Shown here: positions 33,504 to 58,221 of the stretch, piece by piece
How positions within the stretch are numbered: position 1 is the stretch's first letter
How the letters are laid out: every line of letters starts with the position of its first letter
From: Sulfurimonas sp.
Lineage (GTDB): Bacteria; Campylobacterota; Campylobacteria; Campylobacterales; Sulfurimonadaceae
NCBI GenBank assembly: GCA_026988315.1
Contig: JALSLJ010000095.1
Location: forward strand, 1-64,000
Length of the DNA stretch: 64,000 nucleotides
Reading direction: 5' to 3'
Notes under the pieces: generated by a model
What the model saw: only the letters and a program-made list of their open reading frames with translations
Told to the model about the DNA's origin: nothing
Database searches by the model: none
Translations under genes and position numbers: made by a program

Positions 33504-35381
33504 ATGAAAGCTTTAAAGTATTTTTTAGTACTTGGTTCATTAAACCTCTGTTTTGCTCAAGAGAGCAGTATGGATGAGCTACTTAGCACATATGAAACAG
33601 AGTCCAAACTATCAAAAATCTCTAAAATAGAATCTGCTGGATTTGTTACTACATACTCCAGAGATGACTTAGAGAGGATGCAGGCTCGCACACTTATGGA
33701 TATCCTAAGAACATTCTCCATACCAAATATATCTCGCACCGCCACAAATAACTCTTACTTCATGAAACCATCAAATAAATCTATGCCAAACTCTGCTATC
33801 CGTCTCTATATAAACGACCACGATATGGCTGCTAGCAGATTTGGAAGTGATGCGATGGTGTGGAGCGATATGAGTTTGGAATTTATAGATCACATAGTAG
33901 TTTACAAAACAAGCTCTTCCATAGAGTTTGGGAATGAGCCTGGTACTGTTATCATAAAACTCTATACAAAATCACCTGAGACAGAAGAAGGGGGGAAAGT
34001 GCGAGTGACAGCAGATCAAAAAGGGAGCGCATCCCTTAGCACTTACTATGCCCACACAACTAAAAGTGGTTTTTCTTACCTCCTTTATGCCAATAAAGAC
34101 TATATTGAAAGAGAAGCGTACTACAATCAAGCGTACGAGCTCAACAGTGACAACGACAGTGAAAATGCCTATGCAAATTTCTCTTATAAAAATTTTGAAG
34201 TGGAACTTGGGCATTATGAAAAAAACAACAATGCTTTTTTAGGAATGGGAAGTGTTTATACCCCCTCAAACACTAAAGATAACAAGCAACATAACGACCA
34301 TGACTATATACATATGAGCAAGAAGTTTGACAATGATTTAAGAGTGCAACTCTCTTATGACATCATAGATGTTGACTTAGACTATTATGATGACGGTGGC
34401 ATAAGTGCTGGAAGCATTGGCATTGTGAGTGATTATGTAGTTGATATTAAAGATAGTGTATTGTCAGCAACAATAGAAAAAACATTTAATTTTAAGAACA
34501 ATAGATTATTTATAGGTGGATTTTACAAACAAAAAACATCAGACTTTAGAGGAAGCTTCGATACAAACAGCAGCAACTTCAAAAACACTCTCAACATCTA
34601 CTCTCTCTATGGGGAAAATAGTTATAGTTTTAGTGAAAGTTTCATGTTTGTCACATCTTTAAAAGGAGATTTTTACCGTTATGACAAAGATGTAAAATCT
34701 CAGGATATGCTCATAGCAAGAGCGGGGTTGATTAAAAATATAGACAACTTTCAAATAAAAGCGTTTTACACTCAAACTTACTATGCCATACCTATGGCGG
34801 CTCTTTACAGTGGGGATACAAATACTCCTCTCAAAACAGATACTTCACTTGACTATCCCGAGCCTACACTATTGTCTCTTGGAGTTAAATATAAGAGTCG
34901 AAATCATGAACTCAATTTAAAAGGTGCGATGATTACAGTTAACAACAAAGTTGTCCCAGACCCTGCAGTGGGTTTTAGAAACTTGGATAATATCTCTTAT
35001 AACCAATACGAACTAGACTACACTTACTATATAGGTGCAAAAAATAAAATAAATGCAAGCATATATAGCGGAGAAAATGGAGAGGGCTCAGAGATGAGTC
35101 CAAAGTATGGGGTAAATATATTTAGTTTTAACAGTTGTGGTAAGTTTGATTTTTACAATCAACTTCTTTATAAAGATAGCTATGAGGCCTATGGGGTATC
35201 TATGGATAAATCTTATGATTTTACCTCCTCAGTAAAGTACAGGCATACTGATAACCTCACTTTTGGCATCAAAGGGGAAAACATCCTAGACAAAGGGCTT
35301 GAGCAAGCATATAGGAATTATTCCTCTTCAATACCTGTATTTGACAGAAAATTTTGGATAAATATGGAGTATCTGTTTTGA
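33504..35381 (+). CDS. TonB-dependent outer membrane receptor
   Basis: Signal peptide; plug domain TYSRDDLERMQARTLMDILRTFSIPNISR; beta-barrel-like C-terminus ending in F. Confidence 0.88.
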   Translation: MKALKYFLVLGSLNLCFAQESSMDELLSTYETESKLSKISKIESAGFVTTYSRDDLERMQARTLMDILRTFSIPNISRTATNNSYFMKPSNKSMPNSAIRLYINDHDMAASRFGSDAMVWSDMSLEFIDHIVVYKTSSSIEFGNEPGTVIIKLYTKSPETEEGGKVRVTADQKGSASLSTYYAHTTKSGFSYLLYANKDYIEREAYYNQAYELNSDNDSENAYANFSYKNFEVELGHYEKNNNAFLGMGSVYTPSNTKDNKQHNDHDYIHMSKKFDNDLRVQLSYDIIDVDLDYYDDGGISAGSIGIVSDYVVDIKDSVLSATIEKTFNFKNNRLFIGGFYKQKTSDFRGSFDTNSSNFKNTLNIYSLYGENSYSFSESFMFVTSLKGDFYRYDKDVKSQDMLIARAGLIKNIDNFQIKAFYTQTYYAIPMAALYSGDTNTPLKTDTSLDYPEPTLLSLGVKYKSRNHELNLKGAMITVNNKVVPDPAVGFRNLDNISYNQYELDYTYYIGAKNKINASIYSGENGEGSEMSPKYGVNIFSFNSCGKFDFYNQLLYKDSYEAYGVSMDKSYDFTSSVKYRHTDNLTFGIKGENILDKGLEQAYRNYSSSIPVFDRKFWINMEYLF

Positions 35382-46771: not shown

Positions 46772-48778
46772 GTGAAAACATTAAACACGCTCTATATTGA
46801 CATTAACAATTTAACAAAATTCGTTACAGACAATAAAATAGCAGATAATGAAAATATTTTATTGCAAGTATTTACTGGTGTTTGTGATACTGTGTTTTTA
46901 CATGATTTACTTGCAAGCATCAAAAAACTTATTCCGCATATAAAAATCATTGGCTCAACTACTTCTGGAGAGATAATTGGCGGAGATGTAACTGAAAACG
47001 CAACTATACTCTCTTTTAGCATATTTGAAAACACCACAATCGTTACCCATGCTACTAAAAATATAAACAACGAAAGCTATGCAACTGCACAGAATCTAAT
47101 TTCGCAATTCGATAAGTCCAAAAAACCAAAGGTTGCTATCACTTTTGCTGATGGACTAAATGTCAATGGTGAAAACTACCTTAACTCTTTCTCAGACTAT
47201 GATAAAAACCTTGTTGTTGCGGGTGGACTCGCTGGAGATAATGCGACATTTACGCATACTATAGTTTTTACCGAGGAGGAAATTTCAACACAAGGTGCTG
47301 TTATAGCACTTTTTTACAATGATGATTTAATTGTTAATACAAAAGCTAGTTTTGGCTGGACAAGTATTGGTAAAACATTGACTATTACAAAAGCTATTGA
47401 CAATATTGTTTATGAGATAGACAATATCAAAGCTGTTGATATTTATGCGAAATATTTGGGAGATGATATAGCAAAAGAACTTCCAAAAACAGGAATAGAG
47501 TTTCCTCTTATCATCAAAAGAGATGGATTAAATATAGCCAGGGCAGTTCTTGGAAAAAATAGTGATGATTCTTTAGTATTTGCTGGGAATTTAAATGTTG
47601 GTGATAAAGTTACTTTTGGTTATGGAAATATAGAAACCATTATCGAAGGTGGAGAAACCGTATATAAAGATTTATCTTTATATCCAATAGAATCAATTTT
47701 CATATACTCATGTATGGCGAGAAAAGCACTGATGGGTCAAAGTATCGCAGCAGAATTTAAAACTTTAAACTCTATAGCTCCCTTGAGTGGATTTTTCACC
47801 TATGGCGAGTTTTACTATAATAATAAATCATCAAAAAACGAGCTACTCAATCAAACAAATACAATGCTAGCTTTAAGTGAGAGCAATGATATTAATCTAT
47901 CCTATACAAGCAGATTTACAGAGCAACAAAATAATATAAGACGAAGTAACCATACATTGAAAGCCTTGTCACATCTTATCTCCCAGGCAACAAATGAACT
48001 CGAGGAGGTTAATGCCTCTTTGGCATCAAGGGTAGCTCAAGAAGTTTCTAAAAACAGAGAAAAAGATAAACAAATCATGCAACAAAGCAGACTTGCTCAA
48101 ATGGGTGAGATGATAAGCATGATAGCTCATCAGTGGCGACAACCACTTGCTGCAATTAGCTCATCTAGCACAGCAATCAATCTAAAATCAAAATTAAATA
48201 AACTTGACAAAGAAACAACTATAGAATTATCAGACAACATAATCAATTATTCTAAACATCTTAGTGATACTATAAATGATTTTAGAGATTTTTTTCGTCC
48301 AAATAAAGAAAAATTGGAAACCTCTTACGATGAGCTTATAAAAAGCGTCTTAATGATTATAGAGATGTCCATAACTAACAAAAACATAAAACTTATTCAA
48401 GAGCTTGAATCTCATGAATCATTTAACACCTATCCAAATGAGCTCAAACAGGTTATTCTCAACCTCATTAAAAATGCAGAAGATGTTTTAGTTGAAAACA
48501 ATATCAAAAATCCGTATATCAAAATAAAAACATATCTGCAAAATAATAGATATATTTTAGAAGTGAGTGATAATGGAGGAGGGATAGAAGATGCTATAAT
48601 GAAGCAGATATTTGATCCATATTTTAGTACTAAAACAAAAAAAGATGGGACAGGGCTAGGGCTTTACCTCAGTAAAACTATAATAGAAAAACATTGTGGC
48701 GGGAAACTTAGTGTTTGTAATAGCTCGGATGGTGCTGTATTTAAGATAGAGTTAGTAAAAAATTTTAAAGAAGAATAA
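46772..48778 (+). CDS. FIST-domain sensor histidine kinase
   Basis: FIST-like N-terminus (VFTGVCDTVFLHDLLASIKKLIPHIKIIGSTTSGEI; FADGLNVNGENYL); ISMIAHQWRQPLAAISSS H-box; DGTGLGLYLSKTIIEKH. Confidence 0.9.
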   Translation: MKTLNTLYIDINNLTKFVTDNKIADNENILLQVFTGVCDTVFLHDLLASIKKLIPHIKIIGSTTSGEIIGGDVTENATILSFSIFENTTIVTHATKNINNESYATAQNLISQFDKSKKPKVAITFADGLNVNGENYLNSFSDYDKNLVVAGGLAGDNATFTHTIVFTEEEISTQGAVIALFYNDDLIVNTKASFGWTSIGKTLTITKAIDNIVYEIDNIKAVDIYAKYLGDDIAKELPKTGIEFPLIIKRDGLNIARAVLGKNSDDSLVFAGNLNVGDKVTFGYGNIETIIEGGETVYKDLSLYPIESIFIYSCMARKALMGQSIAAEFKTLNSIAPLSGFFTYGEFYYNNKSSKNELLNQTNTMLALSESNDINLSYTSRFTEQQNNIRRSNHTLKALSHLISQATNELEEVNASLASRVAQEVSKNREKDKQIMQQSRLAQMGEMISMIAHQWRQPLAAISSSSTAINLKSKLNKLDKETTIELSDNIINYSKHLSDTINDFRDFFRPNKEKLETSYDELIKSVLMIIEMSITNKNIKLIQELESHESFNTYPNELKQVILNLIKNAEDVLVENNIKNPYIKIKTYLQNNRYILEVSDNGGGIEDAIMKQIFDPYFSTKTKKDGTGLGLYLSKTIIEKHCGGKLSVCNSSDGAVFKIELVKNFKEE

Positions 48779-48783
48779 CAAAA

Positions 48784-50772
48784 ATGATAAGCTTAGAAGA
48801 GATAATAAAATATTCAGTAAAATTAAAACTACTCTATGTTGAAGATAATAAAGAGGCAAGAGAAGCGACTATCTCTATTTTAGAAGAATTTTTTGATGAT
48901 ATAATTATTGCCGTTGATGGAAAAGATGGAATAGCTAAGTTTAATGCAAATACTAAAAAAGAGAAGCCCATAGATATAATAATAACTGATATCAATATGC
49001 CAAATATCAACGGTTTAAAAATGATTGAAGAGATTAGAAAAATTAATAAAAAAATCCCTATATTGGTTCTTTCTGCTTATAATGAATCTGGTTTTTTTAT
49101 GGATAGCATAAAACTTGGCATAGAGGGCTACTTATTAAAACCTATAGATATAGAGCAGTTTTTAGGGGTCTTGAGTAAAGTTTTAGAAAAAATTAAATTG
49201 CAAGAGGAATCCTTGAAAAATCTTAATTTACTTTATCAATACCAAGAGGTTACGGACAAAAGTGCTATTGTCTCAAAAACAGATCCAGATGGAATGATCA
49301 CATATGTAAATGACGCCTTTTTAAATATTTCAGAGTTTTCAAAAGATGAGCTAATTGGTCAAAACCATAGTATAGTAAGACATCCAGATAATATTCCATC
49401 TGTTTATGTGGAACTTTGGGATACTATCAAAAATAAAAAACTTATATGGCAAGGAATAGTACGAAACATATCTAAAAGTGGAAAAACATACTATACAAGA
49501 ACAACAATTAAGCCTATTTTAGATCGAAATGGGAATGTTATAGAGTATATTGCGCTTAGGGATAATATCACTGATATTATGAATCCCAAAGAGCAACTTA
49601 ACGACTTAGTGTCTTCGGCTGATGAAACTGTCGTAATATATATAAAAATTGAAGAGTTCAATGATATAGAAAAATTTTATGGGCAAGAACTAGCATCAAA
49701 AATTGAAGAAAAATTTGCAAAAGATATATTTAATTATATGCCAAAAAAATGTAATTTTCAAAAAGTTTTTGTGTTGGGAGATGGTGATTATGTTTTGGCA
49801 AAAAATACAAAATATCTCACCACTAGTATTGAAAATATACAAAATAATTTAAAAATATTTCAAGAACAAATCAATAATACCAGTATAAATATAGGTGAAG
49901 TTGACTACGATATTTCTGTAATTATAAGCTTCTCTTACGGCAAAGATGCCCTTGAAAACTCAAAATATGGGATAAAAAAGCTTCTTGAGAGTAAACAAGA
50001 TTTTATCATCGCGAACAACCTCGTAAAAGAGGGTCAGAGCATTGCTGAAAAAAACTTACAAGTACTTAAGATGGTTAAAAAAGCATTAGATGATAACAAT
50101 ATCATTTCCTATTTTCAACCCATTATACACAACAAGACTAAAAAAATACAAAAGTATGAATCACTAGTTCGACTTATTGATGGGAAGGAGCAAATCATCA
50201 CCCCTTACTTCTTTTTAGATACTACTAAGAGAGGAAAATATTACGCTCAGATAACCCTTTGTGTACTTGAAAACTCTTTTCAAGCACTCGACGAAACGCA
50301 GAGTGATATAACTATAAATCTATCAGTACTCGATATAGAAAAAAGGTTTACAAGAGAAAAAATATTTTATTTACTAGAACACTATAAAGATAAAGCTACT
50401 AGGGTTGTTTTTGAACTTCTAGAAGATGAAAATGTCAAAGACTTCAATCTTGTGAAGAAGTTTATATCTAAAGTTAAAAGTATGGGTGTAAAAATAGCCA
50501 TAGATGACTTTGGTGCAGGGTATTCTAATTTTGAGAGATTACTTGATTATCAACCAGATATTTTAAAAATTGATGGCAGTTTAGTGAAGAATATAGAAAA
50601 AAATAAACTTTCTCTCTCTATTGTTAAAACTATAGTAGCATTTGCAAAAGAACAAAATATACAAACTGTTGCGGAGTTTGTAGAGAATGAAAATATATAT
50701 AATATTTTAAATGAATTGGGAGTTGATTATTCACAAGGATACTTTTTTGGAAAACCTGCTCCTCTAAACTAA
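48784..50772 (+). CDS. Response regulator-PAS-degenerate GGDEF-EAL protein
   Basis: LYVEDNKEAREAT receiver, ITDINMPNINGLKMI; PAS; LGDGDYVLAK in GGDEF position; YESLVRLI, AIDDFGAGYSNFERL, ILKIDGSLVKNI EAL motifs. Confidence 0.9.
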   Translation: MISLEEIIKYSVKLKLLYVEDNKEAREATISILEEFFDDIIIAVDGKDGIAKFNANTKKEKPIDIIITDINMPNINGLKMIEEIRKINKKIPILVLSAYNESGFFMDSIKLGIEGYLLKPIDIEQFLGVLSKVLEKIKLQEESLKNLNLLYQYQEVTDKSAIVSKTDPDGMITYVNDAFLNISEFSKDELIGQNHSIVRHPDNIPSVYVELWDTIKNKKLIWQGIVRNISKSGKTYYTRTTIKPILDRNGNVIEYIALRDNITDIMNPKEQLNDLVSSADETVVIYIKIEEFNDIEKFYGQELASKIEEKFAKDIFNYMPKKCNFQKVFVLGDGDYVLAKNTKYLTTSIENIQNNLKIFQEQINNTSINIGEVDYDISVIISFSYGKDALENSKYGIKKLLESKQDFIIANNLVKEGQSIAEKNLQVLKMVKKALDDNNIISYFQPIIHNKTKKIQKYESLVRLIDGKEQIITPYFFLDTTKRGKYYAQITLCVLENSFQALDETQSDITINLSVLDIEKRFTREKIFYLLEHYKDKATRVVFELLEDENVKDFNLVKKFISKVKSMGVKIAIDDFGAGYSNFERLLDYQPDILKIDGSLVKNIEKNKLSLSIVKTIVAFAKEQNIQTVAEFVENENIYNILNELGVDYSQGYFFGKPAPLN

Positions 50773-53242: not shown

Positions 53243-54493
53243 CTACACAACCATATTTCTTCCAGCAGCTTTTGCCTCATAAAGTGCCTTGTCTGCTTTT
53301 TCAAAAAAAGTTTCTTTACAGTCAAACTTTTCTAGTTGGGCGCAACCAAAACTACAAGTAACTCTATGCCCATGACTAAACTGATGGTTTTCAATCGCTT
53401 TTCTAGCAGATTCCGCCACTTTCTTTGCTCCATTAATACTTGCCCCAGGCAGTAAAAATACAAACTCTTCTCCTCCCCATCTTGCAAACAAATCACTATC
53501 TCTGGTTCTTGAAGAAACCAAAGATGCTAACTCTATTAAAACATCATCACCAACCTTGTGCCCATAAGTATCATTGAATTTTTTGAAATAGTCTATATCC
53601 ATTATTATCATTGATAATTTTACATTATATCTTTTAGCTATTGCTATCTCTTTATCAATTAGCTCATTAAAGCTTGCTCTATTTGCAATTTTTGTTAACT
53701 CATCTGTATAGGCTTTTTTATAAGTTTGTTTATGACTTATTTTCATATGGGTAATTTCTGACAAGGATATAATAGTATGCTTAGAATGCTCAGTTTTTTT
53801 CAGTGTTATCAAGAAAGCTTTTGGCTCATGTGTATGTATCTCCTCTATAGCAACAACTCTTTTGTCATCTTGTAGTGCTAGAAGTTCCTCTATAGAACTT
53901 CCAATGCCATCCTTGGGGGTATAAAAATCTGGATGCTCTATAAACAGTGAACTTGAAAATTTTATCTCTTCGTAGTTATCTACATCAAAAAAATCAAGTG
54001 TTTTGTTGTTTGCGAATACTGTATCATAGTTTTTATCTAAAACAAGAAGTAAATCATTTTGTAAATATGCTACTTCTTTTAAAATTTCAAGATGTGCATC
54101 ATATCTTTTTTTCAACTCCATCTGCTCTATATATTTTTTGAGTTTATCACCAAGCTCATCAAGGTCAACTGGCTTTATTATGTATCCATCTATTTGCATA
54201 TGTATAGATTCCATCAGATATGAACTCTCATTATGCGCAGTAGTAAAAATAACGATTTGATTTGTATCAATTTTTTTTATCTCTTTTATCATCTCTATAC
54301 CGTTCATAATAGGCATTTTTATATCCGATATGATGATTTCAGGCTTATACTTTTTGTATAATTCTAAACCTTCAGAGCCATTTGTAGCAATATGAAGATT
54401 TTTGCAAAATCTCGCTATAAACTTTGAAAGCATCTGTCTAATATTTTCTTCATCTTCTACATATAGTATCTTTATATCATTGTTATTCTTCAT
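53243..54493 (-). CDS. Response regulator-diguanylate cyclase (REC-PAS-like-GGDEF)
   Basis: ILYVEDEENIRQML, IISDIKMPIMNGIEMI; ARWGGEEFVFLLPG. Confidence 0.93.
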   Translation of the reverse strand: MKNNNDIKILYVEDEENIRQMLSKFIARFCKNLHIATNGSEGLELYKKYKPEIIISDIKMPIMNGIEMIKEIKKIDTNQIVIFTTAHNESSYLMESIHMQIDGYIIKPVDLDELGDKLKKYIEQMELKKRYDAHLEILKEVAYLQNDLLLVLDKNYDTVFANNKTLDFFDVDNYEEIKFSSSLFIEHPDFYTPKDGIGSSIEELLALQDDKRVVAIEEIHTHEPKAFLITLKKTEHSKHTIISLSEITHMKISHKQTYKKAYTDELTKIANRASFNELIDKEIAIAKRYNVKLSMIIMDIDYFKKFNDTYGHKVGDDVLIELASLVSSRTRDSDLFARWGGEEFVFLLPGASINGAKKVAESARKAIENHQFSHGHRVTCSFGCAQLEKFDCKETFFEKADKALYEAKAAGRNMVV

Positions 54494-56435
54494 TAAAATT
54501 CATCCTAAATTCTGCTCCATCTTTTGTATTATTTACACTGAGTGTAGCCTCCATATTTTCTTCAATAATCATTTTTGACATATAAAGCCCCATACCAGTT
54601 CCCTTGCCCTGCTCTTTTGTTGTAAAATAAGGCTCAAAAATTCTCTCAAGTATATCTTTTGGTATGCCCCCAGCATTATCTCTAATGGAGATAGAATTAT
54701 CTCTTAATACAATCGATATTTTTGCATTTTCAATTTTTTGTTCCAAAAGAGCATCTTTTGCATTGTTGATGAGATTTAAAATCACCTGCTGAAACTCATT
54801 TTTAAATCCATCTACTTCAAACCCTTCACCCTCTATAGACACATCTATTTTGTGACTTTCTAGTTGTGCAAGCTGCATTGATATAGTTGCTTTTATAGCT
54901 TCTTTTACATCAAAAAATTCTTTCTCTTTATCTAGCCTATAAAAGTTTCTAAAATCATCAATAGTTGTTGACATAAACCTAATAACATCTTTATTCTTTT
55001 GAATAAATTGATTTAAAAAAATCTCATCAATCAAGCCATCTTCGTAGTCATATTTTAAGTTTTGTATCCCTATGCTTAGTTCATTTAAAGGTTGTCTCCA
55101 CTGATGAGCAATAGCACCTATCATCTCACCCATGGATGCCATTTTAGATTGTTGCTGTAGTGTTTGAAGCTGTTTTATGTTTTCATCGGTTTTCTCTTTT
55201 ACAAGACTTTCAAGATTTTCATTTAGCTCTTTGAGCTCTTTTGTTCTATCTTGAACCTTCTTCTCTATCTCTTTTTTAGAGTTTTGAATTTTTTCCACCA
55301 TCGCTTCTAAAGAATCAGACAGCTCTCCAATTTCATCAGAAGTTTTTACACCCTCAAATACAACATCCTCTTCCATGTTTTTAGAAGCCACGGTTTGAGC
55401 TTTTTGCTTCAATCTTACGATAGGTGTGATAAGATATTTTACTAATAGCAAAGTTGAAAAAGCAATAATAAGTGTCGCTATTAGTATATAAATAGCAAGA
55501 AGTTTTTTATACTCATCAGATTGCTCTTTTAAAAAAACATCAGATGCACTGAGTGCAATCACAATGCTTTTATCATCTAATATATCTATTTTTTTATAAC
55601 TAAAAGCTAAATTATTATCAAAATAGGATTTTTCTTCCAAGGAAAAGTCATTTTGTAATTTCTCATCTTTTCCAAATTCAAAACCAAACACCTTGTCTTT
55701 ATCTTTATGATAGAGATAATAGCCATCTTCATTTGCTAAATAGATGTTTTTCTCAGATGAATAATTGTAGTTTATAGGTGTAAATAGTTTATATATATCT
55801 GCATTTACAATTAAAATAGCAAAAATACTATCACCATCATATACAGGTACTGCCACCCTAATTGTTGGGAGGTATGGCAAAGACAAAATACCATTTTCTC
55901 TATTTAAATTTATTTCAGATATATACACCTCATCTTTTTTTAATGTTTTTGCTTTTTTAAAATAGTCTCTTTTAGATTTATTTTGTAGATCTTCATTTTT
56001 AATAATAACAATCTCTCCCTTATTACCCTTTACTACAGTGAGTAGTTCTTTTCCATTTTTTGCATCTATTAGTCTAATATTGAAGTAAGCTTCCTTATGT
56101 TCGAGTATTGATTTTATATTTTTTTCAAATCTTTTTTTCAAACCACTGAGGGTATCGTTTGTCTTTTTATCATAACCATACTTATTTTTAGTTGCTCTTA
56201 TGATGGCTTGAATATTCTCGTCATTTGCAAACAGCTTTACATCCCCAACCATCCCTTGTATATTTTCATTTATGGTTTTTGAATACTCATCAAGCTCTAA
56301 AACTAAGGAGCTTAAAAGATTTTGTTTGAAATACTCTCTCACTTGTGTATATGATAAAAAAGCAAAGACAATAACCCCTAAACCAGCGATAACAAATGTT
56401 CCAATCGCTACCTTAGTAGATATACTAATCTTCAT
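54483..56435 (-). CDS. Membrane sensor histidine kinase with extracytoplasmic Cache-like domain and HAMP
   Basis: Two TM helices flanking a ~280 aa sensor domain; IGAIAHQWRQPLNELSIG; GTGMGLYMSKMIIEENM. Confidence 0.92.
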   Translation of the reverse strand: MKISISTKVAIGTFVIAGLGVIVFAFLSYTQVREYFKQNLLSSLVLELDEYSKTINENIQGMVGDVKLFANDENIQAIIRATKNKYGYDKKTNDTLSGLKKRFEKNIKSILEHKEAYFNIRLIDAKNGKELLTVVKGNKGEIVIIKNEDLQNKSKRDYFKKAKTLKKDEVYISEINLNRENGILSLPYLPTIRVAVPVYDGDSIFAILIVNADIYKLFTPINYNYSSEKNIYLANEDGYYLYHKDKDKVFGFEFGKDEKLQNDFSLEEKSYFDNNLAFSYKKIDILDDKSIVIALSASDVFLKEQSDEYKKLLAIYILIATLIIAFSTLLLVKYLITPIVRLKQKAQTVASKNMEEDVVFEGVKTSDEIGELSDSLEAMVEKIQNSKKEIEKKVQDRTKELKELNENLESLVKEKTDENIKQLQTLQQQSKMASMGEMIGAIAHQWRQPLNELSIGIQNLKYDYEDGLIDEIFLNQFIQKNKDVIRFMSTTIDDFRNFYRLDKEKEFFDVKEAIKATISMQLAQLESHKIDVSIEGEGFEVDGFKNEFQQVILNLINNAKDALLEQKIENAKISIVLRDNSISIRDNAGGIPKDILERIFEPYFTTKEQGKGTGMGLYMSKMIIEENMEATLSVNNTKDGAEFRMNFNEE

Positions 56436-58221
56436 AGCTGCTATCTTCTAACACTAAAGATATTGTTCTATTAGCAAGTTCAACTACACTATATACATCT
56501 GATGGAGTTTTATTTTTAACAACAGCAATACTATATACGCTTGGCTCTATTCCATAATAAACCCGTATCTCAGAGATGGTTGCACTCACTATTCTAAGTG
56601 CATTATAAACAGATGTAGGTGTGATAGTTTCATCTTTTTGAATTATTGTTTTTACAGATACAAGATTACCTCTGTCCTTGATTTTTTGCAAGCTCTCTAA
56701 AAGTTTTAATGACTCCTTAAACACATCACTAGGTTTTTTTGAGGTAGTTGTTTTCATGCTTAATTTTTTTGTATCTTTTAAAAAATAGTTTGTTAGTTTT
56801 TGTATATCATTTTGAATCTTTTCTGCTAAAACAAAGGTTTCATTTGGTGTATAATCTATGTTTAACAAAGTATCTAGTTCATAAGAAATTTTCCAAAGGT
56901 TATCATAAACATCTGATGAAGTTTTATCATTATAGTGTTTCTTATTTAGAAGCTCTCTATAAGATTCTAGGCTATATTTATTTTCTTTAGAAAATATATG
57001 TTGACTTACAAGATTTAACTCATCATCAAGTCTAATAATAAGCTCATATACCTCACTCGGTGTTATTGCAGTGCTTGGATCACTTGGACTTTGTGATGGC
57101 TTAAAACCTTCAAGCTCTTTAAATTTTGAAATTTTTTCTAGATTTTCTACCCCTTTAACATAGACATGGATAGGTTTTAAACCATAAATATAAGTAGTTT
57201 TTTTGGCTTTAAGCTTTATACCTTTTAAAATTTTTATAGATTCTATTTTATTGAGTATATATTCGCTCAAAGCATACACATCATCAGGGGTCTTTTTTAG
57301 GGTTGACTTTGGGTATTGGTTTAACTTTTTTCCAAGTTCAAAAGATGGTAAAATAGAAATAGCATACTCAAGATTCTGTACAACATCTGCAGGTGTTTTT
57401 TTCTCTTTTATCTCTTTTAGTTTAAAAGATCTCTCTACACCTAGTCTTCTTGAGATTCTATTTAGTTCTGCTGTTAGTGTTTGAATTGAATCATATACCT
57501 CTGTGGGAGAAATTATTTTTTGTTTTACATCTGGTATAGGAACAGGTTCCATCCAGAGTTTTTTTTGTATTTTATTTATTTTGTTTAAAAGCTCTATAGA
57601 TTTATACAGTGCATGGTTTGGATGTTGATGCTCTTTTCGTTTTGGTTTTTGAATATTTACTTGTTCCCTTTGGGTTGATGCCAAAAACTTAATAACTTCT
57701 ATAATTTGTTCTGTTTGAATATATACATCTGTTGGTGTAAATCCTTGTCCTAACATCTTATCAAAGGCTAAAGAGATTCCCCATAACTCCCTGTAAACAT
57801 CACTGGGTGTTTTATTTGTATATTTTTTTGGTATAAATCTTTCCTCTTTTAAGATTTTTTTATTTTTTAAGAGATGTGCTACCTCTATTTTTAATCTTAT
57901 AACATTCTCATAAACATCTTCAGGTGTTATATCTCGTGGTGGGACTGGAGGTAGAGTAATCTTCCCAAAATCATTTATCTCTCTATATTTATTTACCTTT
58001 GAGAGTATTTCGAGCGTTTTTTGAAGAACATGTCTAGGGGATTTGTTTTTTTGCTTTTCTACCTCATCAAGTTTGTCATAAATATTGTGCTCTTTTCTCA
58101 GCTCTATAACCATAGACTTCAGCACAACAGACTCAGCATAAACATCAGATGGTGTTTTTTCTTCAGCAAAAACATCCACAGATAGCAACAATAAAACTAT
58201 AATTAGTATCTTCATAAACAA
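56425..58221 (-). CDS. Secreted protein of 16 [T/S]PxDVY repeat units, unknown function
   Basis: Signal peptide MFMKILIIVLLLLSVDVFAEE; KTPSDVY-like motif recurring mainly every 38 aa; overlaps the histidine kinase start. Confidence 0.9.
   Translation of the reverse strand: MFMKILIIVLLLLSVDVFAEEKTPSDVYAESVVLKSMVIELRKEHNIYDKLDEVEKQKNKSPRHVLQKTLEILSKVNKYREINDFGKITLPPVPPRDITPEDVYENVIRLKIEVAHLLKNKKILKEERFIPKKYTNKTPSDVYRELWGISLAFDKMLGQGFTPTDVYIQTEQIIEVIKFLASTQREQVNIQKPKRKEHQHPNHALYKSIELLNKINKIQKKLWMEPVPIPDVKQKIISPTEVYDSIQTLTAELNRISRRLGVERSFKLKEIKEKKTPADVVQNLEYAISILPSFELGKKLNQYPKSTLKKTPDDVYALSEYILNKIESIKILKGIKLKAKKTTYIYGLKPIHVYVKGVENLEKISKFKELEGFKPSQSPSDPSTAITPSEVYELIIRLDDELNLVSQHIFSKENKYSLESYRELLNKKHYNDKTSSDVYDNLWKISYELDTLLNIDYTPNETFVLAEKIQNDIQKLTNYFLKDTKKLSMKTTTSKKPSDVFKESLKLLESLQKIKDRGNLVSVKTIIQKDETITPTSVYNALRIVSATISEIRVYYGIEPSVYSIAVVKNKTPSDVYSVVELANRTISLVLEDSSYED
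56428..58158 (-). repeat. 16 degenerate ~114-nt (38-aa) coding repeats in a 4x4 super-repeat
   Basis: Motif residue (P, or S in unit 12) at aa 24,62,100,139,163,201,239,277,312,350,388,435,459,497,535,573. Confidence 0.85.

Follow-up and report, generated by a model that had tools for sequence, protein, structure and literature searches.

The 64,000-nucleotide stretch of Sulfurimonas sp. DNA analysed here (the window; positions 1 to 64,000 of contig JALSLJ010000095.1) carries a gene for an exported repeat protein that overlaps the gene of a membrane histidine kinase, and the question raised by this locus is what such a protein contributes to its neighbour. We propose that it acts in the periplasm as a co-sensor, docking on the sensor domain of the kinase and thereby controlling the synthesis of c-di-GMP, a reading to which we assign a probability of roughly 0.6. 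The computed basis of the proposal comprises an export signal, an operon overlap, helical repeats, conserved genomic linkage, matching trees, a conserved charged cluster and intact catalytic motifs, from which we infer the physical contact, the binding of a ligand, the direction of control and the pseudo-dimer arrangement considered below.

The repeat-protein gene lies on the minus strand at 56425..58215, stop codon included, and encodes 596 residues with 16 helical units. The open reading frame, which has minus-strand orientation at 56425-58221, had been read in an earlier note from a TTG at 58221; the ATG at 58215 is the better start, because a GAGGA lies upstream and a clean signal peptide follows. 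The predicted signal peptide (residues 1-17, 58165..58215, minus strand) is of the signal peptidase I type, judged from its sequence, and would be cleaved between MKILIIVLLLLSVDVFA and EE; pLDDT in the AlphaFold2 model described below is low over residues 9-16, within this peptide. The signal peptide has no lipobox cysteine, and the mature window protein has no cysteine at all. Inspection of aligned family members revealed a hydrophobic N-terminal signal, and the predicted product is an exported, soluble periplasmic protein, which lends support to the earlier description of the protein as secreted. In one relative (L039 604-2415, G347), an in-frame TAA interrupts the repeat gene close to the 5' end. 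No paralogue of the repeat protein was found in its own genome, and carriage of the gene on a plasmid was rejected, as no plasmid match was found.

The 16 units are marked by a conserved proline, or in one case a serine, at residues 22, 60, 98, 137, 161, 199, 237 and 275 (units 1-8) and at 310, 348, 386, 433 (Ser), 457, 495, 533 and 571 (units 9-16); these are the positions counted by hand in the earlier note, less 2 for the shorter start. The successive spacings are 38, 38, 39, 24, 38, 38, 38, 35, 38, 38, 47, 24, 38, 38 and 38 residues, so that 10 of 15 spacings are exactly 38, rather than the 11 first counted, while the two 24-residue steps (units 4-5 and 12-13) do fall at matching places. 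There are eight occurrences of the strict motif [TS]P.[DE]V[YF], as against a mean of 0.003 and a maximum of 1 in shuffled sequences, and the autocorrelation of the sequence is highest at 296, 38, 288 and 76 residues.

A nested architecture of four blocks of four units, reached by doubling from 4 to 8 to 16, had been suggested from the sequence, and is borne out by the similarity of the units and by a tree of the halves. In an alignment of 10 orthologues with the units arranged by phase, mean unit similarity is 36.9 at lag 8 and 23.8 at lag 4, compared with 8-16 at other lags, and none of 5000 phase permutations reached the observed similarity; a cross-phylum alignment of 17 sequences gave 29.1 at lag 8, 19.5 at lag 4 and 6-12 at other lags. 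Block duplication from 4 to 8 to 16 units is thus well supported by sequence comparison for the long, 16-unit form. A separate sister family consists of 8 units in approximately 305 residues, with units 4 and 5 also joined by a 24-residue step, and in this family the lag-4 (4+4) signal is weaker (permutation p = 0.04). Both sizes are found in several phyla. In the tree of halves, all N-terminal halves (100/100), all C-terminal halves (95/84) and all short proteins (100/100) form separate groups. Because each of the three forms one group, the 16-unit form most likely arose once, before spreading between phyla; the root of this tree is not fixed, and short proteins that are ancestral or that arose by loss of one half would fit it equally.

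The AlphaFold2 model of the long protein, built from the 17-sequence alignment (mean pLDDT 87.9, pTM 0.86), contains 16 helices and no strands. Each helix begins exactly at one of the listed proline or serine positions, in agreement with the earlier proposal that the T/S-P position caps a helix and that the repeats are all-helical, and the repeating helical units whose absence from such a model would have spoken against the earlier note are present. The first block (units 1-4, residues 20-158, 57742..58158) contains helices 22-42, 60-80, 98-115 and 137-155, and the second (units 5-8, residues 159-303, 57307..57741) helices 161-181, 199-219, 237-257 and 275-288. They are followed on the same minus strand by the third block (units 9-12, residues 304-454, 56854..57306; helices 310-331, 348-368, 386-411 and 433-451) and the fourth (units 13-16, residues 455-596, 56428..56853; helices 457-479, 495-515, 533-554 and 571-590). 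Each modelled unit consists of a single helix of approximately 21 residues and an extended linker of approximately 17 residues, and only the joints between units 4-5 and 12-13 are short, being 5-residue turns. A short member modelled independently (15 sequences; pLDDT 89.3, pTM 0.86) has 8 unit helices in the same pattern. Since the 17-residue extended linker could run back along its helix, helices 1-4 may lie parallel to each other in the modelled fold, with helices 5-8 antiparallel to them.

The suggestion of an alpha-solenoid-like fold was not supported as worded, as the modelled unit is one helix and not a hairpin, and Foldseek returned no solenoid match from the PDB. Like TPR, Sel1, PPR, HEAT and ARM proteins, the family is built of tandem helical repeats of 30-40 residues, but their unit is a helix hairpin, whereas here one helix and an extended linker make up the unit. 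Foldseek searches of the PDB with both models found no solved counterpart (lowest E 0.47 and 0.88, and no TM-score above 0.33 among the matches listed), and no viral predicted structure resembling the fold was found. Neither Pfam nor NCBIfam assigned the window protein to a family at cut-off, and PDB sequence searches with the protein and with the family profile gave nothing convincing, the GSK3 matches at E 0.2-1.7 being judged to be chance. Pfam scans of the window protein and of 17 long and 12 short members yielded a weak scatter over unrelated families, including, in a single member, Arm_3 at E 0.0016. Sigma70_r3 (PF04539) was rejected, having matched the last 53 residues of 1 of the 17 members at 22.5 bits, against a cut-off of 25.3. 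PexRD54_WY (PF22748), matched weakly by 4 of the 17 long and 2 of the 12 short members (E 1.2e-4 at best), was ruled out because the family profile reached only E 0.69 in the PDB, against a protein other than a WY protein, and no WY protein was among the Foldseek matches listed. No known repeat family was thus confidently assigned, and the Pfam scans and Foldseek both agree with the earlier note, whose author did not recognise the units as TPR, Sel1, PPR or HEAT repeats. No description of such a repeat partner or of PF21623, the sensor family of the adjoining kinase, was found in the literature searched, which excluded preprints and most subscription papers. The repeat family appears to be new, being absent from the protein libraries checked (Pfam, NCBIfam and the PDB), and the modelled fold is probably new, while the proposed role, that of a co-sensor of a sensor kinase, is of a known kind.

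The partner histidine kinase (650 residues, 54483..56435, minus strand) consists of a periplasmic PF21623 sensor, a HAMP domain, a HisKA domain with its H-box, and an HATPase domain, and its ATG sits inside the 3' end of the repeat-protein gene, with an overlap of 11 nt. The Cache-type PF21623 sensor domain occupies kinase residues 99-257 (55665..56141, minus strand; E 3.1e-27), and is the sole PF21623 match of the genome. The third gene of the cassette (53243..54493, minus strand) overlaps the kinase gene, also by 11 nt, and encodes a response regulator with a GGDEF domain that carries the GGEEF active-site motif and RDSD as the RxxD inhibitory-site motif. The kinase and cyclase motifs are intact in sequence, and the 11-nt overlaps at both joints are consistent with translational coupling. 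Near the cassette, the window also encodes a FIST-domain sensor with HATPase_c beside a receiver-PAS-EAL protein (46772-50772, plus strand), a second c-di-GMP-linked signalling pair. Elsewhere in the window, a 625-residue protein (33504-35381, plus strand), for which Pfam recognizes only a TonB-dependent receptor plug, adjoins a sulfatase-family gene.

The pairing of repeat gene and kinase extends far beyond this genome. In a family-level sample of 200 genomes, a PF21623 protein is encoded downstream on the same strand of all 24 complete copies (11 long and 13 short), matches to the repeat and to PF21623 being compared by coordinates; the kinase lies directly downstream in 28 of 30 testable loci of a cross-phylum set and is adjacent in 14 of 16 loci of an order-level sample, the three samples having some species in common. 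The partner kinase clearly belongs to the PF21623 (HK_sensor_dom_bact) kinases, but most PF21623 proteins of the family-level sample, in which the domain occurs in 91 of 200 genomes, have no adjoining repeat protein, and many of the partnerless proteins examined resemble sensor-GGDEF fusions, not kinases. Relatives of the repeat protein were found in Sulfurimonas, Hydrogenimonas and other Campylobacterota, in a Persephonella MAG, in Oceanospirillaceae, Thiotrichaceae, Methylococcales, Rhodospirillales and Mariprofundus, and in Magnetocorallium (Nitrospirota), Nitrospinaceae and Planctomycetota. Most of these are MAGs, so that binning errors could affect some taxon assignments, and the range is a lower bound, as the cross-phylum scan used one peptide pattern.

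The outputs encoded beside the pair differ: most long forms occur with a receiver-GGDEF protein, and many short forms with hybrid kinases bearing GAF or Hpt domains, together with a CheB/CheR fusion and a receiver. As the outputs vary while the kinase is steady, the constant partner is the sensor-bearing kinase and not the output. In short cassettes such as L077 10455-12119 and L078 11324-12799, a fused CheB-CheR and a lone receiver follow a large hybrid kinase, and the sequences suggest that short cassettes with CheB-CheR form a methylation-linked adaptation module. In an Arcobacteraceae locus (L085 4712-5974), the short repeat gene is preceded by a receiver-GGDEF gene. The linkage does have exceptions: in three loci (L073, from Thiotrichaceae, L043 and L044) no kinase adjoins the repeat gene, and an apparently short-type PF21623 kinase (L126, G160:C107:14500-18500) has no upstream repeat gene. 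At a Nitrospinaceae locus (L072 5959-7207), one of the two exceptions among the 30 cross-phylum loci, the repeat frame lacks units 4-5, ends within unit 7 and continues directly into what is left of a HisKA domain, with a receiver after it, and the sequence reads as that of a decayed cassette in which a deletion fused the repeat gene to the HisKA remnant.

Distances among the repeat proteins are correlated with those among the kinase sensor domains (r = 0.81 for long and 0.82 for short forms), and none of 2000 permutations gave a value as high. Such matching trees were not accepted as proof of contact, as they would also be expected of genes that move together. The kinase sensors sort into separate long-partner, short-partner and no-partner groups, the no-partner set having been drawn only from the family of the window organism.

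Conservation points to a possible site within the repeat protein. Among 49 module sequences (N-terminal halves, C-terminal halves and short forms from several phyla), Arg107 is invariant, Lys66, Lys73, Glu111, Asp139, Ser148 and Asp152 are at least 92% conserved, and Glu69 is 90% conserved; Arg61, Gln65 and Arg78 are invariant in N-terminal halves and short forms and often altered in C-terminal halves. All of these residues lie on helices 2-4, so that each module has one cluster and the long protein two. The cluster of module 1 (residues 61-152, 57760..58035, minus strand) comprises Arg61, Gln65, Lys66, Glu69, Lys73 and Arg78, then Arg107 and Glu111, then Asp139, Ser148 and Asp152, and its counterpart in module 2 (residues 349-448, 56872..57171, minus strand) comprises Lys354, Glu357 and Lys361, Arg395 and Glu399, and Asp435, Ser444 and Asp448. 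The cluster may merely stabilize the fold.

In the proposed mechanism, the exported repeat protein would be the soluble periplasmic input of a three-gene cassette completed by the PF21623 membrane kinase and the receiver-GGDEF diguanylate cyclase. The charged cluster in helices 2-4 of each 8-unit module would bind either a small ligand or a target in the periplasm, and docking of the protein on the kinase sensor domain would alter kinase activity, and with it the phosphorylation of the receiver and the synthesis of c-di-GMP. The 16-unit form may correspond to two 8-unit forms joined covalently as a pseudo-dimer, which would match the usual dimeric state of such kinases. The fullest version of the proposal is offered tentatively. 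In it, the repeats would be a new class with a new fold, in which a single helix and an extended linker recur with a period of 38 residues in blocks of four units, and would have evolved as a periplasmic co-sensor dedicated to PF21623 kinases. Each 8-unit module would carry one ligand site, and the 16-unit form would be a covalent pseudo-dimer that originated once and spread between phyla together with its kinase.

A different kind of control is exemplified by CpxP, a small, non-repeat protein with a helical fold and an inhibitory role. A protein acting in this manner would keep the kinase inactive until misfolded proteins or damage to the envelope titrated it away, and no small ligand would take part. 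The gene logic, an accessory protein for a sensor kinase, and the all-helical model are shared with CpxP, but the proteins described here have 8 or 16 repeats and match no solved protein in sequence or fold, and a cluster conserved residue by residue across phyla suits a specific site better than a general sensor of misfolding, which makes this explanation unlikely. We consider it more doubtful still that the array is a scaffold or tether that binds an envelope polymer, such as peptidoglycan or a polyanion, or a surface structure, and informs the kinase of contact or of mechanical state. The repeat architecture, the basic character of most long forms (pI 8.7-9.7 in Campylobacterota), and the GGDEF output, as c-di-GMP fits surface attachment, would all suit such a role, yet several long and short forms have a pI of 5.3-7.5, and the conserved residues form one cluster per module instead of recurring in each unit. 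As the basic charge is not kept throughout, polyanion binding was rejected as a trait of the family. That the protein works independently of the kinase, for example as a periplasmic chaperone or enzyme merely belonging to the kinase's regulon, would account for the three loci with no adjoining kinase but is improbable given the matching trees and a linkage (24/24 and 28/30) that persists across phyla despite outputs as different as GGDEF proteins and hybrid kinases with CheB/CheR fusions.

The co-sensor reading has precedents, as sensor kinases are activated by ligand-loaded binding proteins in the TorT/TorS, LuxP/LuxQ and XylFII/LytS systems (PMC6321045). There, as here, an exported soluble protein is genetically paired with a membrane histidine kinase, and the entry of the signal through the periplasmic domain of the kinase is proposed here by analogy. 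TorT, LuxP and XylFII have the two-lobed fold of periplasmic binding proteins, whereas the repeat protein is modelled as an all-helix array of 8 or 16 units with no PDB fold match. Membership of the periplasmic-binding-protein family was ruled out because the model contains helices only and no strands. A likeness of another kind is offered by CpxP, which serves the kinase CpxA as an accessory protein in the periplasm (PMC4160245). The repeat protein would, like CpxP, be a helical periplasmic accessory of a sensor kinase.

Since its gene nearly always lies immediately ahead of that of one particular type of membrane sensor kinase, the repeat protein probably helps the kinase to sense something outside the cell membrane. 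To our knowledge, no signal has been assigned to most Cache-domain kinases; should the kinases described here receive theirs by way of a separate repeat protein, a ligand screen run on the kinase domain alone would overlook it. In addition, the family provides a clean natural series of 4, 8 and 16 units in which the growth of repeat proteins can be followed. Since its carriers are marine and sulfur-oxidising bacteria of several phyla, the signal may matter for their switch between attached and swimming life.
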